Source of the DNA: Parachlorella kessleri
Taxonomy: Eukaryota; Chlorophyta; Trebouxiophyceae; Chlorellales; Chlorellaceae
Assembly (NCBI GenBank): GCA_001598975.1
Contig: BBXU01000034.1
Location: forward strand, 1 to 64,000
DNA length: 64,000 bases
Direction of reading: 5' to 3'
Below the pieces are notes generated by a model. The model worked only from the letters and a program-made list of their open reading frames with translations. It was not told the origin of the DNA and made no database searches. A program made the translations under genes and the position numbers. Positions 33,173-62,245 of this stretch are shown piece after piece (position 1 is the first letter of the stretch; the number at the start of each line of letters is the position of its first letter).

Positions 33173-35115
33173 ATGCGCACAGAGTACAGTGCTGGAGTCA
33201 GCGTTTGCGGCTGGGAGGACCCTTTCACAGAGGAGAGCTTGGCTGTTGCGGCCGCCGTTCCACCAAGCCAGCGCAGCCCCGAGGTGGCAGCCTTCATAGA
33301 ATGTGGCCAGCTACAGCGAGAACTAGCAGAAGCACTATTGCAGGGCCGCCACTCCACTCGTCAGCAGGAGGCCCTGTACGCCCTCAAGCTCACTCGCTGC
33401 CACATACTCAGCCCAGCCGTGGCGCGCTGGTATCACACACCCGTTTATGACGTGGCACTGGAGAGGCTAAGAAGCGTAGCGACCATCTTGGGCACTCACC
33501 CTAGCGTTGCTGAAAACCCCATCATGGAGCTGGTCGATTCCAACTTCAGCCTGGACACGCTGTTGCTGATCGCAGCCGCGGCTCCTGCTTACGTCACTGG
33601 CATCGATTACCTCGCCAGCCCAAAGCTGCTGCGAGTGCTTAAAAGGATTGTGGAGACGACGCAGCGCCCAACAGTGACGGAGCAGCTGACACATGAGCTG
33701 GAGCAGCTGCAGGCAGGCCTTCACTGCAGCCTGCTGAGCTACAAGCAGCTGCTGACATTCTTCATCCAGCTGGCCTTCCACAGAGGTATTGAGATGCTGA
33801 TGAACATTGGCAAGGTGCATGGGATAGCCAGAAGCTTCAATACTGCCCATATTATAAGGTGAGCCAGGGCGGGATGGCTCAAAGTAAGCAAACGAGCAGT
33901 TGAAGGAGGCGCATGGGCTCGCTTTTGTTATTTGTGATCCATGCCGCCACAGTCGTGTCCTTGCTGTGATTTCCGTGTACAACTCTCTCCGGTATATATG
34001 AGACAAAAGAACAGCATGTGGACGCACCCTTGGTCTGCCTTCTGGTACGACGGTCTGCAGCAAAACCTTGCGCACCTAACACAGCACACCAGTGACAGTC
34101 TCAGTCGCGCTGGAGTTGCGTATTGCAAGTACGTGCAACAGCAAGAAGAAATGGTGTGTGTTTGTGCCCCACTATAAATTCTGCAGGGCAACCGCCAATG
34201 CAGCAGACCTGCTGCCCAGGCTGGCGCCTGAGGATGTCGATCAACAGGCCTGCGCCTTAGCCGCAGCAGACCAGTTAGCGGTGATGCGCTGCCAATCCCA
34301 GCACACCACAAACGTTTTTGCAGCAATAAGCCGCTTCAGACGCCTGCTGGAGCAATCCCATCAGCAGGGCAGCGACTACAGTGCTGCAATCACCTGCTAT
34401 CAACTGACCGAGTTCTCAGGTGCCTATGCTGTCCAGCTTGCATCTGGAAACCCAGGCTCATGTTGACAGCCCCCCTCCCAGCGCCTTTCTGGGCTGGCTG
34501 CAGCAGGCTCGGCAGGCGCATGAGCGCTGCCAGGTAGTACTGCCTCAGCAGTGGATCAGTGCGCTGGAGGAGAGGCAAGCGACGGCTCTGCCGCATGAGG
34601 CATTACTGCTGAAGCTGGTGCGTGAAGGGGACGCCTGGCAAACGCCGACCTGCCCTGGGGCCAGCCAAACCCAGGGTGATGCGCTCACGCAGCCCATTAG
34701 AGCAGTCCCAGCCCCTGCTAAGAGATGCAGCAGTTGTACAGAGCCACTGGCGCATGTCCGGATGTGCAGTGGCTGCAGACAAGCGCGGTATTGCAGGTGA
34801 GGTGAGGCGCAGATGGGTAAGATGCTGGTTTGGCTTGTGTGTGGCCTGGTCTTTCTTGTCAGTAACTTGAGTTGCAGTCAGTAACTTGAGTTGCAAGACA
34901 CTTGCATCAAGCCAGTGGCAGTCTTTGCCAGTGCCCACTGTATGTGCTTGGGAAACTCCACATAACATCAGTTTGGAATGAGAAATTTCACTAAAAGCTT
35001 TACTGCCAGATCTTGTCTGCCATGCAGCCGCGAGTGTCAGAAGGCGCACTGGCCTCAGCACAAGAGCTTCTGTAAGGCGCAGCAGCAGAGGGGGAAGGAC
35101 CGCGGGCACGAGTGA
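33173..35115 (+). pseudogene. MYND-family paralogue M1, frameshifted in exon B
   Basis: First copy of the cluster family. Exon A 33173-33858 codes module I (PPSQRSPEVAAFIE, ALKLTRCHILSPAV, LLSYKQLL). Exon B 34187-34796 codes module II (GWLQQARQAHERCQ) and the MYND start (CSSC, CSGCRQARYC). Exon C 35028-35115 completes the finger (RECQKAHWPQHKSFC). Introns are GT-AG, phase 2. Exon B changes frame near 34415 between YQLTEFS and PPSAFLGW, and its length (610 nt) is not compatible with the other exons. The family start codon is also changed: paralogues have ATGGAGGAC where M1 has TGGGAGGAC, so translation would need the ATG at 33173, thirteen codons upstream. A one-base assembly error cannot be excluded. 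Confidence 0.75.
34858..34895. repeat. Two 19-bp tandem units in an M1 intron
   Basis: Two exact 19-base units back to back in the intron between M1 exons B and C. Confidence 0.85.
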
Positions 35116-35220
35116 GGAGGTCTACAGCCAAGCTTTATTCAGTCATATATGATCAATGCGTCTACATGAAGCCCACTGTCATAACTTGTGCTTCAGAGTG
35201 CAACTGGTCACAGGCCAACT

Positions 35221-35430
35221 TCAATATAGCTTGTATGACAGCGGCACTGCCGGGCTGAGAAAGTGGGAGCGAGGGAGCTTCAGATCAGCCAGGGCTTCCT
35301 GATGGCGGCATAAGTGCCTGCGCTGCCACTGCTGATGTTCTGTTGCCACTTCTCGCTGCACCTGGCAGCACTCATTGGAGATGGCCACCATCCTGCTGGG
35401 TGACTGCAAGGAATGTCGGTAGCGGTCGCC
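35221..35430 (-). pseudogene. Isolated exon A fragment of the MYND family
   Basis: The minus strand reads SNECCQVQREVA, then HQEALADLKLPRSHFLSPAVPLSY, matching module I of the family (IECCQLQRELA, QQEALADLKLTRSHFLSPAVPLWY). Only the start of exon A is present, ending in a stop where others have WYR. Bases 35390-35430 keep a degraded PSQRSPEV segment. No exon B or C follows, so this is a relic. Confidence 0.7.
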
Positions 35431-36135
35431 GGCACCACTATTGTAAAGGCTGCGCCCATGCTTCACATGCATTGGTACAAGCTCCACAATTGTTGGCAGC
35501 CCATTGCCGTAACCTGCCTGGCAGAGCTCAGCAAGACACCCAAACGAGCAAGCCCTCCCTGTTCATCCTGCAAGCAGAGACTAGGCCCTTGTTAGCAGTC
35601 TGTGCTGAAGCCACAGTGTGGTAGGGTTAGTCTCCTTGGTGGAAGGCACTAAGCAAGCCTGTTGGGTGTCGGGTAGAATAACACACAGAAAATGACCCAA
35701 GGCTAACTCACCCAAGGATGTTATTATTATTATTACATTAGTGGCCTGGCCCAAGGATGTGTTAGCCAGCAGGGAAGTCCTTTGGAAACCTGTCACAATG
35801 AAAGAAGTGGCGGGAACCCCGTGATTCTCCATGGACCCTCTGAACACACACCCCTCACTTATCAGCTCCACCTCTAGATCTAAGATCCAGCACCTGAGCA
35901 GATAAGGTAAGGCTTGAACTGGGGTCGAACGCTTGGTGCAAATTTGTGTCTCCCACTGCCAAAAAGTAGTGTTGCAAGCAGGCCTGGTTGACCCCACCGA
36001 GCCGAGGTAGCTCTTGGGGATTGCAGTGCAATCCGAACGTTGAGGACTACCAGTTGCTAGTGCTTAGTAGTGGGCCCCAGGCAAAGCAGCTAACCCTTAA
36101 CAGCAGCAAGGCGTGCCTTGGTAGCAGGCATCGGC

Positions 36136-38384
36136 ATGGAGGAGCCTGTAATAGAACAACGACTGGCAGCTGCCACCGCCACCCCGCCCAGCCAGCGTAG
36201 CCCCGAGGTGGCGGCCTTCATAGAGTGCTGCCAGCTCCAGCGAGAGCTGGCAGAGGAGCAGCGACAAGGCGCTAACCCAGCCCGCCAGCAAGAAGCCCTG
36301 GCCGCCCTCAAGCTTGCCAAGTCAAACGCCAGTAGCCCAGCAGTGGCGCTCTGGTACCAGCCAGCTGTGTATGAGGCTGCCTTGGAGCGTGTGTTGTCCG
36401 CAGCAAGGATGAAGAAACGGTTCAAGCCGAGACCTGCCCGTGACCCTGCAACCCGCATCCTGGCCCTTGCAAACTCTGACTTCAGCATCAGAACGCTGCT
36501 CTTGGTAGCGGCAGCGGCGCCAGCATTTGGCGGAGCCAACATCAGCGGATTGTTGCCTGTGTACAACAGCATTGTAGAGAGGATGCAGCGCCCAGCAGAA
36601 TCAGCCAAGCTGCGGCCGGAGCTGGGGCAGCTACAATCGGAAGTTGCCCGCAGCCTGCTCAGCTACGAGCAGCTGCTGGCGTACTTTATAAAGCTGGCAT
36701 CAAACGAGGCTGCAGAACTGATGGCCAACGGAGGCTGCGGCATTGCTGCGCATATCGATGCTGCTTACAGGCATGCACACTGACCATTGGTGAAGTTCCT
36801 CAAAGGACATGTGTGCATGTGCGACCTCATCAGTGGTCTGGTATGTTTTTACAGTATTTTGGGCAACTTACGTTGTTGCTTGATTTCCTGCACCATGGGA
36901 AGTCCTGCCGCCCTTGCAAGTTCCAGCTCGAGTGTTGAACTGAAACGGTCAAGCCCCGGGCGGTACCGACTGCACATGCTCTCGTCAAACTTCCAAGTGA
37001 TTCGCATCAGTGTGAGAGGAAATGAGCTTTGCCCAGGAGCACTTGTGACCAAGATGTTCTGCCGTTTGCTTCTGTGCAGGGCTCAAGCAGAGCTGGTCCC
37101 CAAGCTGGTGCCTGACGCCCTGCATCGGCAGTTCTTCTCGCTGATGGCAGCAGAGGTGCAAGGCGCGATGTTGCAACCCCCAGCTTACGATCATTGCCAG
37201 CAGACCATCCGCAACCTAGCAGAGCTCCTTGAGCGGGCCCAGCAGCAGGATAGCGACTTCACTGTGGCCCTCTGCGGCTACCAGCTGGCATCACTGTGCC
37301 CAGACTACGGGGCAGTGGCCCACAAGAAGCAGCTGCATCAGCAGCAGCAGCAGCAAGCTGCGCACCTGCAGGGAAGCTCTGCAGGTCTGCCAGCTCACGG
37401 AGGAGTTGTCCCGCCCAGCGCATTCCTGGGCTGGTTGAAGCAGGCCAGGCGGGCGCATGCCCGCTGCCAGGCGACGCTGCCCAAGCAGTGGACGGTGGGT
37501 TTCGAGCGCCGGCAGCAGGCGCCGCTGGTCTGGAAGTCCTGGCTGCAGGGGCTGCAGCGGGAGGGCGACAGGTGGCAGCTACCATCTACAGCGCAGGCCA
37601 ACCAAGTAGATGCGCAGACGGTTGTGGGGCTGGGAAGAATGTTGGCGGACCCCTCCGCAAAAAACCGGTGCACCAGCTGCGGGTTGCCGTTGCCGCACCT
37701 ACGGAAGTGTGGTGGCTGCAAGCAAGCATTTTACTGCAGGTGCGTGGGTGGGTACTAGGCGGTACGCTGTCTGGCCAGCGTCACCCCATGGTGTGTTGTG
37801 GTGCAGCGCAGGAATTGATGTCCTACACACAGTGGTTGCACTTTATGTTGATTCTCTTCTGATCAAGTATGGCCCGCAGGGTGTAGGTAGTCGTGAAGCT
37901 TACCCCGCCATGGGATACCATCACGATAAGGGACACCCTTGTCGTGCCATGGGTCACGGGTTCGAACCCGGGAGGTTGTTGATTTTTCGGCCTTCCCGGG
38001 AGGGGGAAAGTGGTATCCAGCTTGCTGGGGGAGGGACCCCCGACGTAATGGCAGCAGGCGGGCCGACCCGTCTGCTTCCCGTCGCCATGATAGCTGTCCC
38101 CTGCCCTCTGGCAGGGGTATGCAGCCGTGGTGTCGTTAACCCACGCCGCAGGCACGTCAACCACTGGTTGTCCTCCTTGGGGAAGCCCCACGGGGCTAGG
38201 CCCCAAGTAGCCATGGAGTAATATTTCCCCTTTTTTTTAGTCGTGAAGCCCATTTGATGACACCACGGCTATGATTGGTAACAATTGGCAAGAAACACTG
38301 GCTGTGCCTTTTTGCAGCCGTGTATGCCAGAAGGACGACTGGTCAGAGCACAAGGACTTCTGCATTGCTCACAGGGAGCAGTGA
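36136..38384 (+). CDS. MYND zinc-finger protein M2, intact paralogue
   Basis: Function unknown. One of two paralogues that read intact, 453 residues. Exons: A 36136-36770, B 37080-37739, C 38318-38384. Module I (about 1-212) starts MEEPVIEQRLAAA and has PPSQRSPEVAAFIECCQLQRE, SPAVALWYQPAVYEAA, NSDFSIRTLLLVAAAAP, LLPVYNSIVERMQRPA and LLSYEQLLAYF. Module II (about 213-400) has ELLERAQQQ, FTVALCGYQLA, PPSAFLGWLKQARRAHARCQ, LPKQW and GDRWQLP. The MYND finger is complete: CTSC, CGGCKQAFYC, VC, H and C across the B-C intron. MYND fingers usually bind proline-rich partner peptides (family knowledge); no SET or other enzymatic domain is seen. The A donor is GC (CAG|GCATGC), where most paralogues have GT. 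The second intron holds a SINE-like insertion. Confidence 0.82.
37888..38249 (+). mobile_element. SINE-like retroelement in an M2 intron
   Basis: A 12-bp direct repeat (TAGTCGTGAAGC) flanks 338 bases: 37888-37899 and 38238-38249. The interior has a perfect RNA polymerase III B box (GGTTCGAACCC, 37959-37969) in a tRNA-like context near the 5' end, and it ends in a T run next to the right repeat. Target duplication, internal Pol III box and a short body without an ORF fit a tRNA-derived SINE. It lies in the M2 intron between exons B and C and makes that intron unusually long. The A box is not clear by eye. Confidence 0.72.
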
Positions 38385-39368: not shown

Positions 39369-41086
39369 TCACTGGCTCCGAGTCGTGTGCACCTTGCAGA
39401 AGTCCTTGTGGCTCTGCCAGTGTGCCCGCTGGCACTCACGGCTGCAAAGCACAGTTGTGTCAGCCTGGTCATAGGGGCTGTCACCTGACAGACACGCCTT
39501 TGGCGATATGGTATGGACTGCCAGCTACCCAGCGCGACGGCCCATAAATTCCGCTGCGGTTGGCACCTTAACACATGACAGGTGCAGCACTGGTCTTTGT
39601 GAGCCACAGGAGGCAGTGCGGTGAGTGCCGTGTCTTCCTGACAGCCCTCCCTATGAGCCGGAGGACATGCCTCACCTGCAGTACTGCACTTGCTTGCATC
39701 TGCCGCACAACCTCAGATCGGCGCACAGGATGCCACAACCGTTGCGTGGCCCTCACAAGCTGCCCTGCGGAGTTGCCTGCCCTAGGCTGCACCTTGTTCT
39801 GCTGAGGTCCCAACAGCTCCCAGGATTCATTATTAGGCTGCTGCTGCTGCATCCAGGGCTTTAATGCCAGGGCTCTCTGCTGCCAGGACTTGTGCATTGC
39901 GGTCCACTGCTTGGGCAGCAGTGCCTGGCAGCGCTCATGGGCTACCCTCGCCTGCTGTAAGAAGCCCAGGAAGGCGCTGGGAGGAACGCATGACTCATGG
40001 ATGCTGCGATGATATTTTCTTATGATCGGGATTGAGGCACCCCAGGTACAGTAGCTCTTTGAGAGGTCTGCCAGTTCGTAGCCACACAGGGCCACAATGA
40101 AGTCGCTGCCCTGCTGCTCGGCCCGCTGCATCAAGTCCTTGAGCAGGCGGACTGAAATGGGCGTGTGGCTCAGTGGCACAGTGTGGTCAGCAAGCCACTC
40201 CGCTGCTCTGATTGCGGCAAAACAGAGGTGTAGGTTGTTGGGCACCAACTTGGGGAGCATCTCTGCCTCGGCCCTGGAGCAGCGGAGCAAGTCCATTCAT
40301 GAGCAGACCGGGCAGGGGCGGGTAAATGTAGAGGATTCCCTTGTTTCTTCATGAGGCTGCATATGCAGTACAATCACATGAGGCAGAGAAGAGTTGGGCA
40401 ACAAATGAAGGAAGCCTTGCCAACTTTAAAAGTCCACCATGACCCACCTGACAGCCGAGTGGATGTCAGCTTGTATGTCCGCGTCAGTTGCCCCTGCCCA
40501 GTCCCTAGCCTGCACGCCTGTCAGCCACACCAGGTATGCCAGCAGCTCTTCATAGCTCAGCAAGCTGCTGGGAAGGTCTGCCTGCAGCTGCTGCAGCTCC
40601 TGCCGTAGCCGAGCAGCAAGTACTGGGTGCTGCATCTTCTCCACTAGGCTGTTCAGAGCCGGCAGCACCCCTGTGAGGTGGGCTTGACTCCTTTCTAGTG
40701 TAGGAATCCCAGCTGACACCAGCAGAACTGACCAGATGCTAAGGTCATCCTCTATAAGTGTCATATATTCTTGCCGAGAGCACCGATCACTTGCACGTTC
40801 ATGCCGACTCCTGCCACCAAGCGACCCCAGGCAGCAGCATAAACTTTTTGCCTGTACCACAGCGGTACTGCTGGGCTGAGATAGTGCGACCTGGTAAATT
40901 TGAGCGCCGCCAGGGCCTGCTGCTGGCGGGTGGAATGCTTGCCCTGCCGCTGCTCATCCACCAGTTCATCAGCCAGCTCCCCCTGCAGCTGACAGCACTC
41001 AATGAAGGCTGCTACCTCGGGGCTGCGCTGGCTAGGTGGAACAGCGGTGGCAGCCGCCAGGCGCTCTTCTATAAGGTGTCCCACAT
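39369..41086 (-). pseudogene. MYND-family paralogue M3, three frameshifts
   Basis: Exon A 41086-40448, exon B 40273-39676, exon C 39441-39369. Modules I and II are recognisable (VPPSQRSPEVAAFIECCQ, SHYLSPAVPLWYR, LLSYEELLAYLVWL, PPSAFLGFLQQARVAHERCQ). Three lesions break it. One T is lost in the codons after the ATG (ACCTTATA where M6 has ACCTTTATA). One base is lost near 40765, after GALGK. Two bases are lost near 39733, removing the first zinc-ligand Cys codon of the MYND finger. Exon lengths fit these counts exactly. It is closest to M6, also on the minus strand. Confidence 0.82.
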
Positions 41087-41955
41087 CTGTGCACAAGTGC
41101 TGCAGAGCCACGGCGCTTTTTTTAGCTCAGCCCGTCAGTTCAGACCTGAGCCACTTCAAACCAAAGCCAGTGAGTAGCGACTCACGGTTGACTAGTGGAT
41201 GGTTCCCTAGGCTTGTACCCCGCTGGCTATTCGTCAGCCACTCCCTGCCTTTTTTTACCAAGCAGTCCTGAGGGATCACCTGATCACAGAGAGGCGAGGT
41301 TGCAACCCATTTGGGAGATCGGGCCGCTTTAACTTGCGTTACCAAGGCGGCCGTTGTTGTGTTGAGTACAAGTTGATCAGGCAATATGCGGCATGGCAAC
41401 TGTAGTAGGAGTCCTGTGCATGATCTCTTCAAAGTTCCCGCCACTTCTGCATGGGGGCTGGGGATCCGGCTACTTGCGGCTGGCTGGCTTAGCTTGCAGG
41501 TTTTGACAGCAAACAGGGCTACCACTGAAGCCCCTGTTTGTTAACCTTTCGCCCCAAGGCAACGGGACGTAGTGTCGACACTAAACACCCGGCCATCCGA
41601 ACTGATGGCCAGCGCCGCTAGCCTGCAGGCTAGCCCTTGAAGCTGCAAGGGTCTTAGGTAATAACTTACAAGCGTTTGACAAAACCCACTTTGGGTTGCC
41701 TGAACAGGAACCTGCCCTTGGTTGTGTCTTTCGTGTCTTTCAAGTCTTTCAGGTCCTTCATGGCAGCATATGTTGCCGAAGCGGCAAAGCAGCCTGAGGC
41801 TGGCCTGAGGCTGACCCATGGGTCGTCCAACTTGCTTGCTTGTTTCCTAACTTGTGCATGGTTGGCGCACTCTTAAGTAAAAAGGCTGCCGTCTAAATTA
41901 TAGGTGCACCAATACATGTGTGTCTAAGCTGCAGGCCTCGGAGGCCTAAGTCGGC
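41087..41955. other. Intergenic region, M3 to M4
   Basis: Divergent upstream regions of M3 (-) and M4 (+). Bases 41380-41460 resemble the upstream flank of M6 near 50120-50530, but without an inserted segment present there. No gene is seen. Confidence 0.4.
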
Positions 41956-43925
41956 ATGGAGGACCCCATCATCCAGCAGCGCCTGGCGGCTGCCAGTGCC
42001 ATCCCGCCCAGCCAGCGCAGCCCCGAGGTGGCAGCGTTCATAGAGTGCTGCGAGTTGCAGAGTGAGTTGGCAAGAGAGCTGCAACAACAAGGAACGCATA
42101 CTAGCCGCCAGCAGCAGGGCATGACTGATCTCAAGCTTACCAGGTCATGCTTCCTCAGCCCCACAGGCACGCTCTGGTACAGGCCGGCCGTGTACAATTC
42201 TGCAGCGCATCAACTGCTAAGTGCAGCAGCAGCAACTCTTGCGTCGCATGGTGCTCCCGGCGGCAGCATCAGAGCACTGGTTGAGTCTCAGTTCAGCATC
42301 AAGACACTCTTGCTCATGGCAGCGGGCGATCCTACTACCATAAGGTTTGTAGAACAGGAACCAGCAGCCACTGCTTCTTACCTACTACCGATATACAACC
42401 GCATAGTGGACCGCATGCAGCAACCAGCAGTGGCAGCCCAGCTGCGTCGGGAGTTGCAGCAGCTGCAGGCAGACTCCCCCCGCACCCTGCTCAGCTACGA
42501 GGAGCTGCTGGCCTACCTTACTGAGGTAGCATTCAAGCTAGCGGCCAAGGTGCTTACCGTGAGCGCCATGGTACATGGCAGCACGACCGTGGACCATCGC
42601 ACTGCCTCGGCTCTGACGTGAGTCCACGCTGGCTGGACTGCAATGATCAAGGGCAGGTGCCATGGTGTTGATGTCAGTGCAACCGCAGCAAGGAGCCAAC
42701 ATTCCTTTCAGGCGGCGGCATTGCGTCGCCTCCTGGTTACTATCGAACGGCTGGCGAGCTACATTGTATATCGTAGTCAAGCGCAGCTGCCTTTCTGCAC
42801 TCGTCTATACCTATACTGACGTACATAATGGCTTGCACAAACCGGAACTAGCGAAGGGAGGTGTAAAGTGACGCGCTGTTACAGGTCCCTATTGTGGCCT
42901 ATATGCAGGGCTGTGGCCAATTCAGCAAGCATACTTCCTCAACTGGTGCCTGGGGACCTGCACTGGGACTTCACAGCGACCTCAGCAGCTCAGCTTCATC
43001 TTTCGCTGAACAACAGCGCACCACAGGAACTCCAAAGCCTGGCTCCAATTGTCAGCCGCATGACCCAGCTGCTTGAGCGAGCCCAGCAGCAGGGCAGGGA
43101 CTATGTTGTGGCCGGTTGTGGCTACCAGCTTGCAGGTATCTCATACCCTTATGGCAAACATTTTGCACGCCATGGCCATGTCGCGGAGAGCATGCATCCT
43201 CCCAGCGCCTTCCTGGGATGGCTGCAGCAGGAGGGGCAGGCGCATGCCCGCTGTCGGGCAGTGCTGCCTAAGCAGTGGATGGGATTGCTCAAGGGCATGC
43301 AGGCATCAGCATTGGCGCAGAAGCCCACGCTGGAGCGGCAGCGTGAGCAGGGCGACCGCTGGCAAGAAAGAACTTTCATCGAGGCCAGTGAAGCAGCTGC
43401 GGGACTTCTCAAGGTCGCTGCTAAATTGGTTGCACCGCCCGCTCTGGACAGGCAGTGCATCAACTGCCATATGATCCCGCCATGTGTTCTGCTCTGCGCT
43501 GGATGCAGGCAGGTACCTGGCACCGGTGCGCTACTGCAGGTGAGGCCGCGTGTGACTGCAAGCCACACTCTCCTGTTGGTGGCAGGCAATGCGCACAGGC
43601 TAGAGGCAGGGGAGACAGCACTGACAGTGCCAAATGCCAGTTCTGCTCTGGGATTTTGAATCGTTCATTCTGACCCGCAAGAGGATGTTGGCCGCTTTTC
43701 ACCCTATGGAGCTAGCAGTTGCTTGGCACCTAGGAAAAAAAACTGGGGCCGAATAAGAAGTCTGAGTGCTAGTTCATGCACTTTGCACCACCCATACAAG
43801 TTGAGTTCCTGCTGCATACTAAGCTTTACTCCTTTTTGTGCAGCCGGGAGTGCCAGAGGGCTCACTGGCCACAGCACAAGGCGTACTGCAAGGAGCAGCA
43901 GAGGACAAGGAAGCCTGATGAGTGA
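41956..43925 (+). pseudogene. MYND-family paralogue M4, 13-nt insertion in the finger
   Basis: Exon A 41956-42617, exon B 42909-43539, exon C 43844-43925. Module I starts MEDPIIQQRLAAASAIPPSQ and is fully open, with LLPIYNRIVDRMQQPAVAA and LLSYEELLAYL; module II is open through RMTQLLERAQQQ and PPSAFLGWLQQ. The finger begins CINC and CAGCRQ, but 13 extra bases then separate CRQ from the YC codons, shifting the frame before the donor. Exon B is 631 nt; removing 13 gives the phase-2 length of intact copies. Exon C (RECQRAHWPQHKAYC) is intact. The protein would keep both modules but lose a proper MYND finger. It could be a recent pseudogene or a finger-less variant. Confidence 0.72.
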
Positions 43926-44983: not shown

Positions 44984-45613
44984 ATGGAGGCCAGCTTCCT
45001 GGAGAAGCGCTTGGCAGCCGCCACTAAAATCCGGCCCAGGCAGCGCAGCCCAGAGGTAGCAGCCTTCATAGAGTGCTGCCAGCTGCAGCAGGGACTCACG
45101 CAGGAGCTGCAGCGCGGCCTGCACTCGACCCACCAGCAGCAGGCCCTGGCTGACCTCAAGCTCACCAGGTCGCACATCATCAGCCCGACAGTACCGCTTT
45201 GGTACAGAGAACCTCCCTATGCTGCTGCTTGGGAGCGCCTGAGGACAGCAGCGGCCTTACAAGCTTCAGAACCAATCGTTAACGCTGGCGACCGCATCAC
45301 GGCACTGACAGATATGAGCTTCACCTTGCCAACCCTGCTTCTTGTGGCGGCGGGGGCGCCCAGATTTGTCCAGGCACACATCACACGGCTGCTACCTGCG
45401 TACAACAACATAGTTGAGCGCATGCAGCTGCCAGCGTTAGCTGCTCGGCTGCGGCAGGAGCTGGCTCAGCTGCAGGCCGACCTACCCCGCACCCTGCTCA
45501 GCTATGAGCAGCTGCTGGCACACTTTCTGTACTTGGCATCTCAGGAGTGTGCAAACATCAGGGCTAACGGTAGCAAGAGCATGACAGAAGACATTGACAA
45601 GGCGCTCAGATGA
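44984..45613 (+). CDS. MYND-family paralogue M5, module I half
   Basis: Function unknown. An open frame of 209 residues codes the whole module I: MEASFLEKRLAAATKIRP, QRSPEVAAFIECCQLQQ, ADLKLTRSHIISPTVPLWYR, SFTLPTLLLVAAGAP, ITRLLPAYNNIVERMQ and LLSYEQLLAHFLYLA. At 45610 the expected donor reads AG|ATGAGT instead of AG|GTGAGT, which creates AGA TGA and ends the frame. No other donor of the right phase is near. The frame is open upstream to at least 44819, but the family ATG at 44984 is the likely start. Together with the next entry this looks like one gene split in two. Confidence 0.65.
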   Translation: MEASFLEKRLAAATKIRPRQRSPEVAAFIECCQLQQGLTQELQRGLHSTHQQQALADLKLTRSHIISPTVPLWYREPPYAAAWERLRTAAALQASEPIVNAGDRITALTDMSFTLPTLLLVAAGAPRFVQAHITRLLPAYNNIVERMQLPALAARLRQELAQLQADLPRTLLSYEQLLAHFLYLASQECANIRANGSKSMTEDIDKALR

Positions 45614-47814: not shown

Positions 47815-49846
47815 CTAGACGGCATCATGGTACAAAGTGAGAAGCGTTGGCAAAATCGCAGCAATGGCTACTGCGGCGAACAAAGCTAGGAAAATACCGT
47901 ACCCTGACACCAACCTAACTATGCCAACTTTTGCCTGTTGGCGTGCTGACCGCCAGGTGTGCGCCCTGCAGAGGTCCTTGTGGCTCTGCCAGTGTGCCCG
48001 CTGGCACTCAAGGCTGCACAGCACAGTTGTGTCAGCCAGGGTTATAGATGCTGCCACCGCATAGGTACAATTTTGCCTGGAAGGTACACACTGCCAGCTG
48101 CCCGGCGGTACAGAAGTCTCATTCACTCAGGAATGGCACCCTTCGCACATGAGAAGTGCAGCAGTAATTTGTGACCAGAGGAGGCAGTGGGACGAGTGAA
48201 AGCCCTGTCTCCCTCACAAACCTCTCCGTATGCAGAAGGACGTGCCTCACCTGCAGTACTGCACTTGCTTGCACCTGCCGCACAACCTCAGGTCGGCGCA
48301 CAGATTGCTACAGCCATTGCACTTGTCCCTCACAAGCTGCCCTGCGGGGTTGCCTGCTGTAGGCTGCGTCTTGTTCTGCGCAGGTCCTAGCAGCTGCCAG
48401 GAGTCATTGTTACGCTGCTGCTGCTGCTGCAGCCAGGGCACCAATGCCATGGCCTTCTGCTGCCTGGCCTTCAGCACTGCGGTCCACTGCTTGGGCAGCA
48501 GTGCCTGGCAGCGCTCATGGGCTACCCTCGCCTGCTGCAGGAAGCCCAGGAAGGCACTGGGGGGAACAAACAATTCCTGGAACTCTGTGATCATCTTTTC
48601 TGATGATCATGATTGGGGCACCCCACACACAGTAGCTCTCCGAGAGAGCTGCCAGCTGGTAGCCACACAGGGCCACAGTGAAGTCCCTGCCCTGTTGCTC
48701 GGCCCGCTTCATCAAGTCCTTCAGCAGGTGGACTGAGAGGGCCGTGGGGCTCAGTGGCAAGGTGCGGTCAGCAAGCCACTCCGCTTGCTCTGATTGAGGC
48801 AAAACAGAGGTGTAGGTTGTTGGGCACCAGCTTGGGGAGCATCTCTGCCTCAGCCCTCAAGCAGGGGAGCAAGTTAGTTGGTAAGCAAATTGGGCAGTTG
48901 CGGTTGCTGCAGAGGGTGTCCTTGAGGCCTGGGCGTATTCATTTATTAATTTGCTGCAGAGGTAATCCCTCGTTTCTTCATAAGGGTTCCATGTGTCACA
49001 CTTATTGCGGCCTCCCTGTCCAACAAGTTCAACAACCTCGACCTGTCCATGCTCGGGTTCTCACCGCATGGACATTTACCCGGCTGCGAACCATGCAGTA
49101 CAATCCCATACAACTCCGAGAGGCGGAGCAGAGTCATAGGCAAGACGTTGGAGGTTTTGCATAACCCGACTCACCTTGAAGGTCCTACCTAAAACACCCA
49201 CCTGACAGCCGAGTGGATGTCAGCTTGTATGTCCCCGTCAGTTGAACCTGCCCAGTCTCTAGCCTGTACGCCTGTCAGCCACACCAGGTATGCCAGCAGC
49301 TCGTCATAGCTCAGCAGGCTGCTGGGGAGGTCTGCCTGCAACTGCTGCAGCTCCTGGCGCAGCCGAGCAGCAAGCGCTGGGTGCTGCATCTTCTCCACTA
49401 GGCTGTTCAGAGCCGGCAGCACCCCTGTGAGGTGAGCTTGACTCCTTTCTAGTGTAGGAATCCCAGCTGACACCAGCAGCACTGCCCAGATGCTAAGGTC
49501 GTCATCAATGAGTGCCGTAACCTGCTTGCCGAGGGCACCGACCACTTGTACCTGAATACCGACTCCTGCCACCAAGCGATCCCAGGCAGCCGCATAAACT
49601 TTGTGCCTGTACCAAAGCGGTACTGCTGGGCTGAGATAGTGTGACCTGGTAAACTTGAGCGCCGCCAGGGCCTGCTGCTGGCGGGTGGAACGCTTGCCAT
49701 GCCGCTGCTCATCCACCAGCTCATCAGCCAGCTCCCTGCTGCAGCTGACAGCACTCGATGAAGGCTGCTACCTCAGGGCTGCGCTGGCCAGGCGGAACAG
49801 CGGCGGCAGCCGCCAGCAGGCGCTCCTCTATAAAGGTGTCCCCCAT
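47815..49846 (-). pseudogene. MYND-family paralogue M6, frameshifted, with C-terminal extension
   Basis: Exon A 49846-49202, exon B 48855-48251, exon C 48013-47815. It starts MGDTFIEERLLAAAAAVPPG and is very similar to M3. One extra base near 49737 (after CQLQQ) shifts exon A. Exon B has two single-base gains, near 48785 and near 48600, so its three parts read in three frames. The finger itself is complete (CNGC, CGRCKQVQYC, then EC, H and C). Exon C lacks the usual stop after the finger and runs on for about 45 codons, including a strongly hydrophobic segment (GIFLALFAAVAIAAILPTLL) that would be a transmembrane helix if translated. Confidence 0.8.
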
Positions 49847-50168: not shown

Positions 50169-50219
50169 AGGCTGTGCACCCGGCATATAGCGGGACGCAC
50201 CAGCGGCAATGCAGAATGT

Positions 50220-50868: not shown

Positions 50869-52961
50869 ATGGAGGCCGGCTTCCTGGAGAAGCGCTTGGC
50901 GGCCGCTACCAGGGTCCGGCCCAGACAGCGCAGCCCTGAGGTAGCAGCTTTTATAGAGTGTTGCCAGCTGCAGCAGGAACTGGCGCAGGAGCTGCAGCAG
51001 GGCCTGCACACGACCCGCCAGCAGCAGGCCCTGGCTGACCTCAAGCTCACCAGGTCCCACATCCTCAGCCCGGCAGTGCCGCTTTGGTACAGGAACGCTC
51101 CCTACCTTGCTGCCTGGGAACGCCTGAGGACAGCAGCGGTCTTAGAGGATTCTGAGCCATTTGCTAATGCTGGCGAGCGCATCATGGCATTGACAGATAT
51201 CAGCTTCAGCATGCCGACGCTGCTCCTTGTGGCAGCAGGGGTGTCCAGATTTGTCCGGAGCCAGGCACACGTCACACGGCTACTACCGACGTACAACCAC
51301 ATAGTTGAGCGCATGCAGCGGCCAGAGTTAGCTGCACGGCTGCGGCAGGAGCTGGCTCAGCTGCAGGCCAACCTACCGCAGCCTGCTCAGCTATGAGCAG
51401 CTGCTGGCACACTTTCTGTACCTGGCAGGGCAGCAGTCTGCAAACATGGTGACCATGGGCATCAAGAGCATGGCTGAAGATATTGGCAATTCTGACAGAT
51501 GAGTTGCACCGAGCTGGCCACGACCAGCCTTAGCCCATGCAGGCGTCCGGTCTGGGGAGTTTGGGTTGCTGACTGCTGCCTTCAGATGCTGGTTCTTGAC
51601 CACCAGGGTTGCATATACAATACAATACAAAGCTTTAACGTCCACGGTGCCGTCGGACACATGGGACCGGGGGATGGGGGTGGAAGGTGCCAGCAACCAA
51701 GACCGGTTTCGCCCTTGCTGAAGGGGCTCATCAGTTGGCTTTTGCTAGGTGGGGAGAGGGTGGGCGAGCTTTGCGATATGTCACAAACATGGTAACATTC
51801 CTGCAGTACTACCTTGCTCAAGCGCTTCTTCCTGCCGTTAGAACTAGCAAGCTTCCTTCATTTAGTGTTGTCCTGTCTGCTGAGCGCATGCGAAGACTGT
51901 TGTTGATTAAACAGACAAGCTGTGCTTCACCTGCACAAACTGCCCTTCTTGGTTGCAGGGCTGCAGCCAAGCTAACTCCCCAGCTGGTGCCCGAGGCTCT
52001 GCACTTGCAGTTCCTTGCTACGGGAGCGGACATGTCAGTCCGCGTCAGAAATCAATTAAGCGACCGTTGGAATCACTACACTATACAACTCTCACAGCTC
52101 ATTGAGAAGGCTCAGCGGGTCGGCAGCGACTTCACAGTGGCACTTTGCGGCTACCAGCTGGCAACGGTCTCCCTATACTTTGGAACGGGGGCTGTCGTGG
52201 AGCAAGAACTGGCTGGGCAAGTTGAGGGGACTTCGGCAGCTGCTGCAGGCTTGTCTGTGCTTTTCCCTCCCAGCGCCTTCCTGGGGTGGCTGCAGCAGGC
52301 CGAGCAGGCGCATGCACGCTGCAGCGCAGTGCTGCCCCTGCAGTGGACGGTGGGGTTGGAGCGTCGGCAGCACGCGGCGCTGGCCTGGAAGCCCTGGCTG
52401 CAGCGCCTTCAGCAGGAGGGTGATCGTTGGCAGCTGCCAGCGGAAGAGACAGTGAGTCAAGCCCGAACAGAGACGGCTGCGCAGGCGGTGCAAGCAGTGT
52501 TGGACCCGGCAGTACGAATCACCTGCAGCGGCTGCGGGATCCCTTGGTCTCACCTACGCAGCTGCAGTGGCTGCAGGCAGGCACGCTACTGCAGGTGAGC
52601 TGTCCCACTGAGGGCAATGGTCATGCAGCTGTGTGGAGGGAGCCCAAGAGACAAGAGGGCATGCTGCACATGGCACACTGCTCACCAACCAGATCATTGC
52701 CGGCCACATCTATTTCGATGCTGCAGTAGTCAGCGTGTGCAATTGTGCCAGTTGATGATGAGAGCACCGGCTCCCTGGCCTACACCTCCTAGAGCTCGTG
52801 TGGAGCTGGGACAGGAGCTTTGATCTGGCAGGACTTCGTGCACTGGGAACTTCTCTTCGGTGTTAGTAGGGTGCCATATGTGCCTTTGCAGCCGTGAATG
52901 CCAGAGAGCTCACTGGAAACAGCACCAGGACGTCTGCCGAGCGCAGAGAGGACAGCAGTGA
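50869..52961 (+). pseudogene. MYND-family paralogue M7, lost donor and frameshift in exon A
   Basis: Exon A 50869-51498, exon B 51959-52594, exon C 52892-52961. It starts MEAGFLEKRLAAATRVRP and is closest to M5. Two bases are missing near 51378 (CTACCGCAGCCTG against CTACCCCGCACCCTG in M5), so module I ends early at 51396. The expected exon A donor reads AG|ATGAGT, the same change as in M5. Exons B and C are intact and in phase, with a full finger (CSGC, CSGCRQARYC, then EC, H and C), and the exon B frame is open upstream to 51687. A separate module II/MYND protein could still be made, as proposed for M5. Confidence 0.72.
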
Positions 52962-54519
52962 AGAGGGGGGTGGCGGTCTGCTGATTTGGAAACGGGTGGG
53001 ACGAACTGGCCTCTTAGAAGGACCTCTGCCTTTGGTATGACAGGTTGTTGCGAGCAAGTGCTATGCGGGGTGTGTGGATGTGATCATGTTGGCACTATAG
53101 TTGCATGGGTCTCGTAGGCAAGCTTTGGAGTACCCCAAACCTCGTCCCAGCGGTTGAAGCCCTGAAAGGCAACATCTCTGTGCTGCCCTTTGCTGGTATT
53201 GTAACAGCAATCATAGGCCAGCCTTATGCACGAGCTCATGAGTTTACCTAAGGACCAATGATGGGATTAGTGTGAATCTCTAATCAGCCGGCCTGGCGAC
53301 GACAGCCGTACTCAGCTGGTACACTGAAACCAGCTGAAGACCTACACCACCACAGCCGAATGCTGAACCGGCCCCCGCACCCCCAGCGCATACATTCACT
53401 CAGCCCGACTCTCAACTGCCTGCTGCCAGCTCCAGATGGGGAGGCCTGTCGGTAAGTGTTGCAGCTCCTTGCACAAACGCGCTCCACCACTGCACCATTG
53501 CATCCTCTCTGTGTTGCTGTCATACACAGGCAGCAAGTCGGTACGGTGAGCCTGCTACCACCCACTACTTGCGGCTGTGGCTGTCACTAGCAGGAGAGTT
53601 TCTGCGCTGCATCTAAGCTGACCAGCTGCAGCTTCATGATTCAACTGCCAATGGCACCAGCAGGCATTTTAAGATCTCGCATCATAGTACTAGTTGCGGA
53701 CAGCAAGCGATCCATGGCTGCGTCTGCAGTGCACGGCAACCTGTTAAGTGCGACTATGCTGGTTGAAGGAAGCTGAGTAAGTACCTTTGATTTTTGCAAG
53801 GGCCTACGGCCGCAGCAATGCTTCACCGGATACCAGGCCGCCTTTATTGTATTTCCTAGTGAAGCTGGCAGCACTTCCGAAGTAGACTGAGTCTAAAGGT
53901 GGTCACCGTGAGGCTGCGCTGTCTGTCAAGCACTGCAGTCGCCAGGCGTGCCTCTGGAAGCTGCCCTCTACATAGTATGTCTTGGGTGCAGACCTGCACA
54001 GCTTTCTTCTATTAAGATCGGTGCCCACTGGGTCGAGCGAGTAATGTACAAAATAGAAAGGCAACAGGCACACAGAGAGAGGCCATCAGCTCTTGCCTGC
54101 CAGCAGTGCTCTTCCATGCATGGCGTTAAATCCAGGATAAAAGCCAGGACTTCCCTATTGGCGGGAACCACATAAGGCGGCAGCTTGTGCACTGTCTCAC
54201 TCTCCTTGGTTCGGGTCCGCTGTCTGAGCCCCAAGCTTTCAAGATTGAAAGCTTGAAATGTCAGGCTGCTTGAAAGGTAGGCAACGCATGGATGGGGCTG
54301 CTCGGGTAGGGCCGCCCTGCTAGGGCTATAGCTAGCAAACAAAGCAGCAGGAAAACCTTTTTCAGATTTGCTTGCATGCCTGCTGTGACTGTGGCTGTAC
54401 AGCACACGTGCTTGTAGCGCTTTATGTCCCTGGGCACTCCTTGCTGCTGCCACCGGTGTTGGTTGGGCAGCTCAGCCTGAAAGCACAGCCTAGTGGGGAC
54501 GGGTCTGATAACCTAGTTG
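52962..54519. other. Long intergenic region, M7 to M8
   Basis: About 1.5 kb with no gene, no family relic and no clear repeat seen. Open frames are short and uncharacteristic. Confidence 0.35.
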
Positions 54520-54520
54520 C

Positions 54521-56575
54521 ATGCAATGCTCCCAGCTTGCCGCTGTCCCAGGACATATACATGGCTATGGCTGTTGCAGATGTTCTCATGATAGTAAGCT
54601 TTGCCATGCAGGCTTCAGCTTGGAATTCAGCTTCCTCGAAGAACGACTACAGGCTGCCAAGGCAGTTCCACCTAGTCAACGCAGCCCTGAGGTGGCAGCC
54701 TTTATAGAGTGCTGCAGTGGGAGGTATCAGAGGAAGAACAGCAGCAGAAACAGCACCCCAACAGCCAACAGCAGGTCCTGAAGGATCTTAAGCTCACCAG
54801 GTCGGTCGTCCGGAGCCCAGCCAGTACTCTTGGCTACAGAAATGCTGTGTACGCTGCTGCCTGGAAGCGCTTGCAAGCAGCAGCCAAAATATCAGCCTCC
54901 ATGTCCACCGCTGATGTTGCCTGCCGCATCATTGCGCTGGTAGATCATGACAGCAGCGTCGGATCACTGCTGGCAGTGGCGGCTGGGATTGTGGCAGCTG
55001 GCCGGACCGAGAGGCTGTCCATGTTGCTGGCGTGCAACAACATAGTCAAGGTGATGCAACTCCCGGAGCGTGCAGCGCAGCTGCGGCGGGAGCTGGAGCA
55101 GCTTCAGGCAGACCTCCCCCACAGGCTGCTCAGCTTTGAACAGCTACTGGCATATTTTGTGTGGCGGGCCTACAATGACACTTCTATCCTGACAGACACA
55201 GGGGATAGCGTGGTCACTGGAATAGCTGTGGCTCTCAGGTGAGGCCTCCTTCATGATCATTCACACCGCATGCATGAGGCAACGCGGAAACCTGGCCTCA
55301 GAAATCCAGCCAGGTTCTATGTCTTCAGTGGTTTGAGCCGGGGACGCAGAAGACCTTGATTAGAACACAAACAGGCAAACAAACAGGCTGCACCGGTGTT
55401 GTGGAATCTTAACCTAGTTGTATGTTTCTAACTAAAAAGCCTGCTTTGACCAGTTGTGTTGATATGCTGACCGTATGGAAGCTTGCATGCCAGAGCATGT
55501 TTGTCAGAGGGGTGCACATTGTACATCATGAGCATGGACATGCAGCACGCCCCAGTGTTGTACACCTGCCAATCACGAGATTCTTGACAGGACACACGCT
55601 GCTGACCAACATGCATGCCTCGTGTAGGGCTACGGTGGACGTGCTTCCGCAGCTTGCGCCTGAGCACCTCCAGTACTGCTTCCACTCTATTGAAGTCGCT
55701 GCCTGGTACGGCGGCCCAGGAAGTATACACCCACTCAGCACGAGAGGCCAGTCAGTCCGCAATCTAATAGACTTGCTCAGGCGGGCGCAGCAGCAAGGCA
55801 GCGATAACACTGTGGCCCATTGCGGGTACAAGCTGGCAGCCTTCTCAGCAAAGTACGGTGCCTGGGCCTACAGATGTCAGCAGTTCGCATTGCAGCAGAA
55901 GAAGGACCCTGAGAGTCTGGGCGGCAGCGCATTTGCCCGGCCCAGCGCCTTCCTGGGATGGCTGCAGCAGGCAAAGCAGGCGCATGCTCGCTGCAACGAG
56001 CTACTGCCCCTGCAGTGGACCCTGGAGCTGATGCGCAGGGAGAAACAAGCGGCGGTTTGCAAGCCGTGGCTGCAGCTGCAACAGAAGGAGGGGGACTGCT
56101 GGCAGCAGGAGGGATCCGAGCCAAATCCAGACCCAGAAGCCGACGCATATATGGAGCGTAGGAGGACAGCCAGGAACCTTGCAACAGTCTTCCAGTGCAG
56201 CGGCTGTGGCATGCCTCACTCACACTTGCAGACCTGTGCTGACTGCAAGCGGGCACAATATTGCAGGTGCGACTGCGTCCTGCTGCCCAAGGTCAGGGCT
56301 TTGACTGTTCCCGCAATGACTGTAGGCACACCCCAGTTCCCAGGGCAGTGTGGGCAGTATGCAGGGCAGCTCCGAGCATTATATCAGTCACATAGCTCTG
56401 GCAACTAGCGACCGAAAGACATAAGGTGCAGTTCACCTGCCAGGGGTGCATCGCGACTAGGTTTTAGTAAAGGCCTGTTTGACTGGGCCGGCTTTCTGTG
56501 CTGTGCAGCCGCCAGTGCCAGCGTGATCACTGGAAGAAGCACAAGGAGTTCTGCCGAGCCCACAGGAGGGAGTAA
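54521..56575 (+). pseudogene. MYND-family paralogue M8, frameshifted exon A
   Basis: Exon A about 54620-55238, exon B 55628-56266, exon C 56509-56575. The family start codon is TTG (LEFSFLEERLQAA where others read MEASFLEKRLAAA); an in-frame ATG lies upstream at 54521. About seven bases are lost after IECC near 54715, so QLQRE is missing and the frame shifts; the rest of module I is open (DLKLTRSVVRSPA, LLSFEQLLAYF). Exons B and C are intact and in phase: RARPSAFLGW is seen as FARPSAFLGWLQQAKQAHARC, and the finger is complete (CSGC, CADCKRAQYC, then QC, H and C). Confidence 0.75.
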
Positions 56576-57670: not shown

Positions 57671-59532
57671 TCAGCCCTTGCATTGTGCCTCCTCCTTCTG
57701 CTGGTGCGCCTTGCACAAGCTCTTGTGCACCGGCCACGCCGCCCTCTGACACTCTCGGCTGCAGGATGGCAAGGTCACAGTCAGCAAGCTTGCAATGTTC
57801 TCCTCCACTGCACCCTCCTACTAGTGTTGACAAAGCTCTTCTGCGTGCCACCACAACTCTCATGCGCGGTCAAAGCCTACATGCATGCCTTGGGCTCTAT
57901 ATTCCCAAGTCCTACAGCAAAGGTTGCCGCTGCGCACCCTTCCAAGCCTGCAAGGTTGGAAACTAGGCAGGAAAATGCTGGAGATTCAGGGTTGCTGCCT
58001 GGCAGCCAAACCCTGGCAGCCATGGCAGTGGCAGCTCACCTGCAGTACCGCACTTGCTTGCAACCACCGCACAGACGCAGGTGGGGCGACGGCGCTCCAC
58101 AACCGCTGCAATGGCCGGCTGCACCTTGGTCCGCCACAGAATCCATTGTCCATATCCCATCTTCTGCACGTATTCAACGACCTCTGCCGCAGCGGGCGCC
58201 TGCCAGCAGTCCCTCTCCCGCTGCTGCCGCTGCAGCCAGGGCTTCCAGACCAGCGGCGCCTGCTGCCTGCCCTTGACCAGCGCAATCCATTCAATGGGCA
58301 GCACTGCCTTGCAACGCGCATGCGCTTGCTTAGCCCGCTTCAGCCAGCTTAGGAAGGCGCTGGGAGGGACCACCACTTGCGAGCCGTCCGAGCTACAACC
58401 AGCTTGCCCAGCCTGCCGGTGGTAAGCCCACGCCCCATACTCCGGTGCCACGGCTGCCAGCTGATACCCACAGGTGGCCAGGGTCATGTTATTGCCCTGC
58501 TGCTGAGCGCGCTCTAGCAGTTCCCTGAGCTGATTCACAATTGGCTGCTCTGCTGCAATATGATATGAAGCCGCCAGAGACCTCTGCTGCCATAATGGAG
58601 TCGAAGCAGTACTGTTCAGGTGTTCTGGTACAAGAGTAGGAAGCAGTTGGCCAGCAACCCTGCACGAGACAAGGCCATTGGTCAGCGCCCGACAGCCATT
58701 TCGCAACATCTACCATCCAAATTAAAGCATGCTGAGCAGTACAAGATGTCTTCCTTACCAAGGGTGTCACCTGTTGTAAAGGCAAGGCTTCATTGGGGAA
58801 CACCTGACCAACAGTACGCCCAGTCAGACCAGCAGGGGTCTCCGACGGCTTCATATCACCTCGCTTGAATGGCAAACAAGACTAGCCTACTGGGAGACGA
58901 AGGCACACCTGAAGGTTGATGCAATATCGGCATCAGCAGTGGGTCTCACGGCCGGTAATGCTGCAGCGTCGTGGAATGCCTGGCAAATTTTGCTTGCCAA
59001 CAGCTCTTCATAGCTCAGCAGCCTCTGCGGCAGGTTTGCCTGCAGCCGATCCAGCTCCTGCCGCAGTATATTGGCCACTTCTGGGATTCGCATCTTCGCC
59101 ACAATGCTGCTGTAAACAGGCAGCAGCCTTGCCTTCTGCCGCTCCCTTAGTGACAGCATCTTAACACCGACTGTCACCAGCAGCAAGGTATCAATGCTGA
59201 GGTCTGAATCAAGCAGTGCCATGATGCGGCTGCCCACCGCACCCGGTGGCCGGGGTTCTGGTATCTCTGCTGCGGACTTCAGGCGCTCCCAGGCATACAT
59301 GAAGACAGGGAAGCTGCAACAGATTGGCGTTGGGCCGATCATGTTGGCCCGAGTGAACTTGAAGTCTGCTATGGCCATCTCCTGGTGCGTAGAGTAGCCC
59401 TGCCACTGCCCCTTTGCCAGCTCCCGCTGCAGCTGGCAGCATTCTATGAAGGCGGCCACCTCGGGGCTGCGCTGGCTGGGCGGTGGCCGCATCCAAGCGC
59501 CCCTTCAAGTCTCCGCTGCCCATCATGCTCAT
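57671..59532 (-). pseudogene. MYND-family paralogue M9, frameshifts at both ends
   Basis: Exon A 59532-58909, exon B 58659-58040, exon C 57758-57671. The family-like start (MSMMGSGDLKGRLDAAT) is out of frame with the rest of module I because of a small deletion before PSQRSPEV. However, an ATG at 59492 lies in the right frame (MRPPPSQRSPEVAAFIECCQ), so a protein lacking about 13 residues is possible. Exon B shifts frame near 58130, between module II and the finger, although the finger sequence (CSGC, CGGCKQVRYC) survives in the other frame. Exon C has REC, H and C but reads QRAAW where others have QRAHW. Confidence 0.75.
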
Positions 59533-60369
59533 GGGTATCTCCATGTTGCGTTGATTATATGTGGTCCTGCAGGGCATACCGTCTTGGTTGCCGTGGCAAC
59601 CTTGTTGATCAGTAAGCTGACACAGCAAGTTGCAAGGGGGCTTGGAACCCCCAGCCCGACACCATTTTCGCTCCAAGGCCATCCTTCTGGTCACAAGAGG
59701 CTAAACCATCATTTTGGGGGGGCGTCAGAGCCTGCTCATGAGCTCATGAGCAATCTGCTTCCCTTGGCACCACCCCATGGATGACCCTTCACCTTGTCAG
59801 GGTTTTTCTACAGTCATCCAGCTGAGCGGTTAGGTTCACCTCTCGAGCGGTGGTTTGGGGAGCCTGAGTGCCAGTTAATGAGAGAACTCTCCTATTAAAC
59901 CCTTGCAGGCTTGTTGGGGTTACTGACTGAGGGGGGCTACAGAGCCAGCTGGCTCATCTGCAGAGCAGGCTTCCCGCCACTGGTATGGAGCCCAAATGCG
60001 GTTGGCATCGTACCATGCAAAGGAAAGGGCGGAGCGGCACCTTTTGAAGACTTCAACGTAAATCACCTACTAAATTCATATTGCAAAGGATAAGTGAGTA
60101 TATCAAGAGCAAGTTCTCACGGCTGTGGGCACGTTTTGAGTCGCTTCCCAGGCAGGTCCGGGCTTGAGGCAAAAAGCCGTGGAGGCGTTGCTCACATGCA
60201 CCCCATGCATGGCCACCAACTGGCCAAAGCAAGGCGCTGGCTCAGTCCCAGCTCAAGTGCAAGGCTTGTCCCATCACTGCCTCTTCAGGTGCACCAAGTA
60301 GCTCAGGACATCCCTCAGCTGGAGACGCTGCAGCAGCTGCAAGGGACGCACCGCCCAACCCCTTGTAGC
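59533..60369. other. Intergenic region, M9 to M10
   Basis: Divergent upstream regions of M9 (-) and M10 (+). The M10 frame is open upstream of its ATG to 60094 without family similarity. No gene is seen. Confidence 0.35.
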
Positions 60370-62245
60370 ATGGAGGACACCTTCATAGACGAGCGCCTGG
60401 CAGTCGCCATGGAGCTGCCACCCAGCCAGCGCAGCCCTGAGGTTGCGGCCTTCATAGAGGCCTGCCAGCTGCAGCAGGAAGTAGCCATGGCCAGGAAAGG
60501 ACGCGGCGGCCGCTCCAAACGCGAGCAGCAGGCCCTGAGTGACCTCAAGCTCGTCAAGTCGCAGTTCTTGAGCATCGCGCCCTTCTGCTACCGCCCTGGT
60601 GTCCAACTGGAGGCCTGGCACCGTCTGTGTTCAGCAGCAAAAATTACAGACTACAAAATCGTTGGCGTCACTGGCAGACGCGTCATGGAGCTACTTGACG
60701 CTGACTTCCGCACGGGGACCCTGCTCTCGGTGGCGGCGGGCGTGTCAGCACTCGGCCTGGGGTCGGCCGACATCACAAGGCTGCTGCCTGTGTACAACAG
60801 CGTGGTCGAGAAAATGCAGCGCCCAGCGGTGGCAGCGTGTCTGCGGCAGGAGTTGGAGCAGCTGCAGGCGGATCTTCCTTGCAGCTTGCTGAGCTATGAA
60901 CAGCTGCTGGCAGTTTTTGTGATGTTGGGTATTCAAGACACTGGGGACTTGGCAGCCAAGAGGAAGGACGACAGCATGGCTGAAGATGCTCACTCGGCCC
61001 TCAGGTGTGATTGCTGTGTCAGACTTATTCGTATACGCCTTGCTCCTGTGCGCGGTTGTAGCAATTGAAGAATGCTATGCTTTCTATGCCATGTCCAACT
61101 ATGTAGGATCGCGCATACACTGTGTGCATAAATGAAGCGTCCTGATGACTGCCATTCGCAGAGCTGAACGTTGATAGTCAGTAGCGCTTTTCTGCTTGCA
61201 AGTATTAGCTGTGCAAAATAGTGTTTCCTCTGGCTAACATCATCAAGTTGGAATGAGCTGGCCCCCTTGCTTCAGGGCTTCGGCAAGGTTGCTTCCCATG
61301 TTGGCTCCAGACCACCTTTGGTTGCAATTCTGCTCAACCAGAGTAGTAGGGCGCTACCGCGGCTGCACAGTTGGGACCATCGGTAAACTGAAGCAAGTCA
61401 GGGAGCTGTTTGAGCGGGCGCAGCAGCAAGGCAGTGACTTTGTGGTTGGGTACTGCGGCTATGACCTGGCGGCAATGTCGGCAGATTATGCATGGTATGC
61501 CTGGAGGGTGACGCCCGGGCAAGCTTGGGGAAGCTCGGCCGCATTTGAGGCCATGGAAGTGGTGGTCCCTCCCAGCGCCTTTCTGGCCTGGCTGAAGCAG
61601 GCCAGACAGGCACTCATGCGCTGCCAGGCAGTGCTGCCTGGCCAGTGGTTAGCTGGGCTGAAGGTTAGGCAACAGGCAGCGCTGGCCTGGAAGCCTTGGC
61701 TACAGCGGCAGCAGCAGCTGGGTGACCGTTGGCAGCTGCCAGATTCGGTAGAGATGAAGCTCATCCGAGCCGAGGAGGCCCGTCAGGACGCTGCTGCGAT
61801 TGCTGATCGGAGCATGCGCGGCAGGTGCACTGGCTGTATGACCCCAGCGGCCCACCTGCGACTGTGTGGTGGCTGCAAGCAAGTGCAGTACTGCAGGCAA
61901 GTTGACTGCGGTCGGCTGGTTATTGGGAGGTGCTTGCAAGGTGTATGATCGCAGCATGCAGACGCACACCCTGGCAGGACAGCATCCTTCTCTGATGGCA
62001 TCCAGTAAATAGAGGTGACGGCTCAGGAGCTGACAGCCGAAATCTTCCAGCTGTGCATTGCAAGAACAGGGCCTCAGAGGGGGATATGCAGACTGGCTGG
62101 AGTTGGTGATGGCATAAAACCAACTGTAACGTTCCTCTTCCTGCCTTGCAGCCGCAAGTGCCAGAAGGCAGACTGGGCGCAGCACAAGAGTTCTTGCAAG
62201 GCAAGCCAGCAGCACCCCAAGGGGCAAAGTGTAGGATATGCATGA
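60370..62245 (+). CDS. MYND zinc-finger protein M10, intact paralogue
   Basis: Function unknown. It reads intact, 449 residues. Exons: A 60370-61004, B 61276-61896, C 62152-62245. Module I starts MEDTFIDERLAVAMELPPSQ, with QRSPEVAAFIEACQLQQE, SDLKLVKSQFLS, DFRTGTLLSVAAGVS, ITRLLPVYNSVVEKMQRPA and LLSYEQLLAVF. Module II has ELFERAQQQGSDFVVGYCGYDLA, VVPPSAFLAWLKQARQ, LAWKPWLQRQQQ and GDRWQLP. The MYND finger is complete (CTGC, CGGCKQVQYC, then KC, H and C) with a short basic/Gln tail. The B donor is GC (CAG|GCAAGT), where all nine other copies have GT. The start is the ATG that aligns with M4 (MEDPIIQQ). It is the most diverged intact copy and could be the conserved founder; that is an inference. 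Confidence 0.83.

Follow-up and report, generated by a model that had tools for sequence, protein, structure and literature searches.

Why should one contig of a green alga hold a row of MYND-finger genes, most of them damaged? The question is raised by positions 33173-62245 of contig BBXU01000034.1 of Parachlorella kessleri (assembly GCA_001598975.1), of which the first 64,000 nucleotides of the forward strand were analysed and are called the window here. The answer that we favour, by a slight lean, is a local, lineage-restricted nuclear family of intracellular alpha-solenoid-MYND adaptors of about 450 residues, under birth-and-death. A recognition role for the family is possible.

The cluster and its gene plan

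The cluster is confirmed, with small corrections to the first-pass annotation. When the exons of one copy were used as tblastn query, ten copies (M1-M10) and two exon-1 fragments were located at 33173-62245, seven copies on the plus strand and three on the minus strand. Every copy has three exons and two phase-2 introns, the phase being taken from the reading frames, and the best exon-1 matches of the ten copies in the genome search have E-values of 2e-132 to 4e-30. The intron-1 acceptor is AG/G and the intron-2 acceptor CAG/CC in all ten. The donors of intron 1 are GT in seven copies, GC in M2, and AT in M5 and M7, while those of intron 2 are GT in nine copies and GC in M10. The copies, the exon plan, the intron phases and the mixed orientation were thus as annotated at first, and the single fragment reported then became two. 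The annotated span fits as well, as its ends are an in-frame ATG upstream of the usual start of M1 (33173) and the stop codon of M10 (62245). The features are as follows.

33173-35115, plus: M1; exon 1 runs from an upstream ATG, the usual start being changed to Trp; exon-2 frame lesion near 34461; second half of the finger intact in exon 3
35230-35436, minus: exon-1 fragment (tblastn)
36136-38384, plus: M2; three exons open; intron 1 requires a GC donor
39369-41090, minus: M3; several frame lesions; MYND finger without its first Cys
41956-43925, plus: M4; exon 1 open; a frame lesion close to the end of exon 2 breaks the MYND finger in its first half
44984-46859, plus: M5; every exon open; intron-1 donor AT, not GT
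47815-49846, minus: M6; one frame lesion in exon 1 and two in exon 2; exon 3 extends into a hydrophobic tail
50869-52961, plus: M7; nearest copy is M5; a single frame lesion towards the end of exon 1; intron-1 donor AT; open in exon 2 and in the finger
53420-53608, minus: second exon-1 fragment, with one internal stop
54620-56575, plus: M8; TTG at the place of the start; frame lesion near 54719; exon 2 open, as is the finger
57671-59492, minus: M9; exon 1 lacks its first part; exon-2 frame lesion near 58175; finger ligands present
60197-60337, plus: 5' flank of M10; identity of 72-79% with the corresponding flanks of the copies on contigs C18 and C21
60370-62245, plus: M10; three exons open; intron 2 requires a GC donor; groups with the copies on C18 and C21

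Condition of the copies

Frame lesions were found in seven copies (M1, M3, M4, M6, M7, M8, and M9), and the start is lost in M8 and M9. The first-pass annotation had M2 and M10 intact and eight copies lesioned; the two intact copies stand, but seven are broken and M5 is doubtful, as all its exons are open and the AT donor of intron 1, common with M7, is its sole defect. The model of M5 from the second assembly, N2152v2, splices at an in-frame GT donor upstream of this AT. Because the AT donor is present in both M5 and M7, the change predates their split; the two copies also have a 5' flank in common. In M6, exon 3 (47815-48000, minus strand) reads on beyond its normal stop position, and the added hydrophobic segment resembles a membrane tail.

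Whether the lesions are real was judged from twelve N2152v2 protein models, which were aligned to the window and to C21 and C18. The listed model segments agree at 98-100%, and only two, in P0004 and P0020, are below 100%. The copy order in the window matches tags N2152v2_007612 to 007621, of which nine of ten were recovered, with 007618 missing from that set. Pyrosequencing is prone to homopolymer errors, some of the lesions are single-base length differences, and the constraint on broken copies equals that on whole ones, all of which would suit the view that the lesions are 454 draft sequencing errors and that every copy is a whole gene. The draft of strain NIES-2152, which the window matches and most probably comes from, was obtained by 27.8-fold pyrosequencing (PMC4724957). 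This view is nevertheless hardly credible. Model P0009 of M9 aligns ungapped over 58526-58056, across the lesion near 58175, and model P0011 of M3 is ungapped over 41099-40893, across the start lesion, so that two lesions are read through by proteins of the second assembly, which is perhaps not from independent reads. Indirect evidence comes from the models of M1, M4, M6, M7/M8, and those at the other lesions of M3, which have starts, ends, or splice sites close to the lesions. The lesions, moreover, are not all single-base.

Age and constraint of the copies

Synonymous divergence (dS) across the 45 pairs of window copies has a minimum of 0.26, a median of 1.17, and a maximum of 1.89, and is below 0.5 in only two pairs, M3-M6 and M5-M7. 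The ratio of nonsynonymous to synonymous rates (omega, dN/dS) is 0.431 overall in a codon model of 14 copies. On the terminal branches of broken copies it is 0.374, versus 0.470 on the remaining branches, and fixing the broken branches at 1 lowered the log-likelihood from -14031.05 to -14105.39, a loss of 74 units. Broken copies thus evolved under constraint, and their decay is therefore recent; old pseudogenes are ruled out by the same ratio. Taken together, the high dS and the omega of the broken branches indicate that the copies are old and that most of their divergence accrued under constraint.

The first-pass annotation had pictured many young copies and rapid gene birth and death. Birth-and-death as such held, with a local family, many broken members, and two lesions read across by second-assembly models; the youth of the copies did not. 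The copies may have arisen when local stretches of DNA were duplicated together with the 5' flank. They then probably diverged for long under constraint, apart from a few sites in the later part of exon 1 that changed fast, and would now be lost one by one.

Family members elsewhere in the genome

The proposed whole-genome search covered 50,861,048 bases in 1,642 contigs. With exon 1 as query, 21 matches were obtained, every one on C18, C21, or C23; with exon 2 there were 18, on C19, C21, and C23 and including one finger-only match on C855. Five further copies were recognized: N0, which runs from C18 to C19, and N1-N4 on C21. The exons are open in N1, N2, and N4, while the first ATG of N3 is out of frame. 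The family thus has 15 copies and two fragments, as species-specific tandem paralogues on C18/C19, C21, and C23, and apart from the MYND-only match on C855 no copies were found beyond these contigs in the 50.9 Mb. M10 groups with N1-N4 in the tree with support of 100, and its 5' flank is common to the C18 and C21 copies.

When spliced models of M2, M5, and M10 were searched against proteins, 12 were returned, of which 11 are P. kessleri N2152v2 tags. Judged by tags 007560-007571 and 007612-007621, the two groups of copies lie on a single contig with about 40 genes between them. The exon-1 relatives P0013 and P0015 show the lineages of M10 and of M3/M6 to predate this strain. A second set of relatives (P0019 and P0021-P0030) is without intron 1 and has 39-51% identity to the lead sequence in all rows but one.

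MYND fingers are also common outside the family. Matches to the Pfam family zf-MYND numbered 58 on 30 contigs genome-wide, four in this family and 54 outside it. Other tandem arrays comprise seven matches on C1021, five on C573, and five on C574, with matches also on C648, C1144, and C1146, among others. Kinship with these arrays was set aside, as exon-1 and exon-2 profiles gave weak matches only against 11 other stretches of 6-10 kb; four array alignments were inspected (L039, L043, L037, and L038) and all lie at the finger end, though a deeper kinship is conceivable. A virus origin was rejected, since tblastn found no relative among the 37 pattern matches that A4 yielded in IMG/VR. A mobile-element carrier was rejected because the intergenic stretch 52985-54600 is single-copy in the genome; of the eleven intergenic stretches only this one was searched genome-wide, and for the others the comparison covered the window together with 20 kb of C21 and 5.5 kb of C18.

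Protein architecture and related systems

An AlphaFold2 model (25 sequences) is all-helical, with 21 helices, a predicted local distance difference test score (pLDDT) of 84.1 and a predicted template modelling score (pTM) of 0.82. Residues 2-396 are predicted to form one helix run, an alpha-solenoid, across the exon 1/exon 2 boundary, so the two modules annotated at first give way to a single continuous predicted solenoid. An internal duplication of exon 1 versus exon 2 was unsupported. Foldseek gave no match below E 0.001 among the matches listed. TPR-like peptide-binding solenoids (Rap, LGN, and APPBP2) are similar in arrangement, at 5-10% identity and a root-mean-square deviation of about 5-8, without demonstrated kinship.

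The finger, which is split by intron 2 in the window copies, is of the MYND type: protein P0005 (copy N4) scored 45.4 bits against zf-MYND (PF01753), where the cut-off is 22.7. Eight of the ten window copies, and also N1-N4, have all eight C4-C2HC zinc ligands, M3 being without the first Cys and M4 broken inside the finger. Among solved proteins, the top sequence E-values all belong to SMYD lysine methyltransferases, in which the MYND finger splits a SET domain (PMC3924839). The likeness is limited to the finger, and P0005 and four relatives gave no match to a SET domain at E 0.1. DEAF-1, BS69, and ETO have the C4-C2HC finger in common with the family, the remainder of these proteins being unrelated, and their MYND domains are described as binding short peptides that belong to co-repressors or to viral proteins (PMC3555993). 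NLR-type immune receptors differ, as no NB-ARC ATPase domain was matched at E 0.1 in five proteins.

The closest likeness is to the MYND alpha-solenoid families of PMC13126933. According to that source, MYND-type fingers are the commonest annotation (169) among new predicted organelle-targeted alpha-solenoid candidates, and species-specific MYND expansions occur in the Chlorophyta Edaphochlamys, Tetrabaena, and Gonium. The MYND finger and the species-specific tandem paralogues are common to both, and the helical solenoid, predicted here, may be as well; the two are likened by description and not by sequence. Organelle targeting is predicted there, and other genera are named. Expanded MYND orthogroups reported in Edaphochlamys debaryana (PMC8226300) represent likewise lineage-specific growth of MYND-associated families. 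As these two sources describe comparable expansions in other green algae, the kind of family is already known. No recognised description of this Parachlorella family was met in the literature searched, most subscription journals being outside that search.

These parallels and the helical model would also suit an organelle-targeted alpha-solenoid family acting on organelle RNA, as proposed for the green-algal candidates, but for the present family this is quite unlikely. The copies open with the acidic stretch MEDTFIEERLAAA, which, judged by eye, is unlike a transit peptide, and PPR models were unmatched at E 0.1 in five proteins. Pfam is not known to contain an OPR model. If the proteins are instead intracellular adaptors, as we favour, the solenoid would bind one partner and the finger, by analogy with other MYND proteins, may bind a short peptide of a second; with a partner bound by each part, the protein would act as an adaptor.

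Fast-evolving sites and the recognition question

The first-pass annotation had compared the family with recognition or defence families, and the site tests lend this idea partial and indirect support. They were computed with our own code, in models without recombination and with simulated nulls only (40 each). For N1-N4 and M10, a set that includes N3 with its lost start frame, adding a class of sites with omega above 1 gave twice the log-likelihood difference (2dlnL) of 27.4 with 4.7% of sites, which exceeded all 40 null simulations (maximum 7.63). Uncorrected values were 41.0 for exon 1 in six sequences, 8.9 for exon 2, and 34.8 for all 14 copies. With multi-nucleotide changes allowed, both exons together gave 9.95, above 40 of 40 simulations (maximum 8.03); exon 1 in six sequences gave 26.0, again above all 40 (maximum 5.11); and exon 2 gave 2.5, which is not significant. 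In the close clade the tests point to positive selection on roughly 5% of the sites, clearest in exon 1 and weaker after the multi-nucleotide correction. A posterior above 0.9 is reached in exon 1 by sites 55, 135, 190, 199, 204, and 218 in the numbering of copy N4; in the predicted structure, sites 190, 199, and 204 are in helix 184-205 and site 218 in helix 211-228.

Two points weigh against recognition: the average omega is 0.4-0.5, and the site test is carried by five or six sequences only. An alternative account is birth-and-death alone, under relaxed constraint, with recognition playing no special part and with the site signal produced by gene conversion, multi-nucleotide mutations, or alignment. 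It would accord with that average omega and with the fall of the signal from 27.4 to the corrected value, or to 16.3 when columns near gaps were removed. The nearest pairs among N2-N4 differ between exon 1 and exon 2, which fits some exchange. On the other side, the signal holds on three topologies (2dlnL of 29.8 and 28.5 on the two alternative trees), and that of exon 1 survives the correction. This account is rather doubtful.

In a stronger form of the recognition idea, the family would serve green algae as a fast-evolving system for recognition inside the cell, in which the solenoid would read a variable, perhaps parasite-derived partner, the finger would relay the signal, and copies would be kept or dropped as partners change. 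In such a system the modelled partner face would be helices 184-205 and 211-228, with sites 190, 199, 204, and 218. We regard this system, including its partner face, as rather unlikely.

Tandem MYND families, to which no job has been assigned, expand in several green algae. The present one is small and mappable. It offers whole copies alongside recently broken ones, exon-1 relatives that are intact elsewhere, a predicted fold, and a list of named fast sites. As gene editing is reported for this strain (PMC10916037), the whole and broken copies, the fold, and the named sites make the recognition question directly testable for such algal families.

Neighbouring sequence

An NPC1-like gene at 20911-31900 adjoins the cluster; its N-terminal domain matches PF16414, and its far end was judged by eye. 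It is one of the ordinary genes on the low side of the window, which include also WD40 and EF-hand protein genes. A 92-base repeat, 83% identical, occurs at two distant places in the window, 16792-16883 and 62980-63069.
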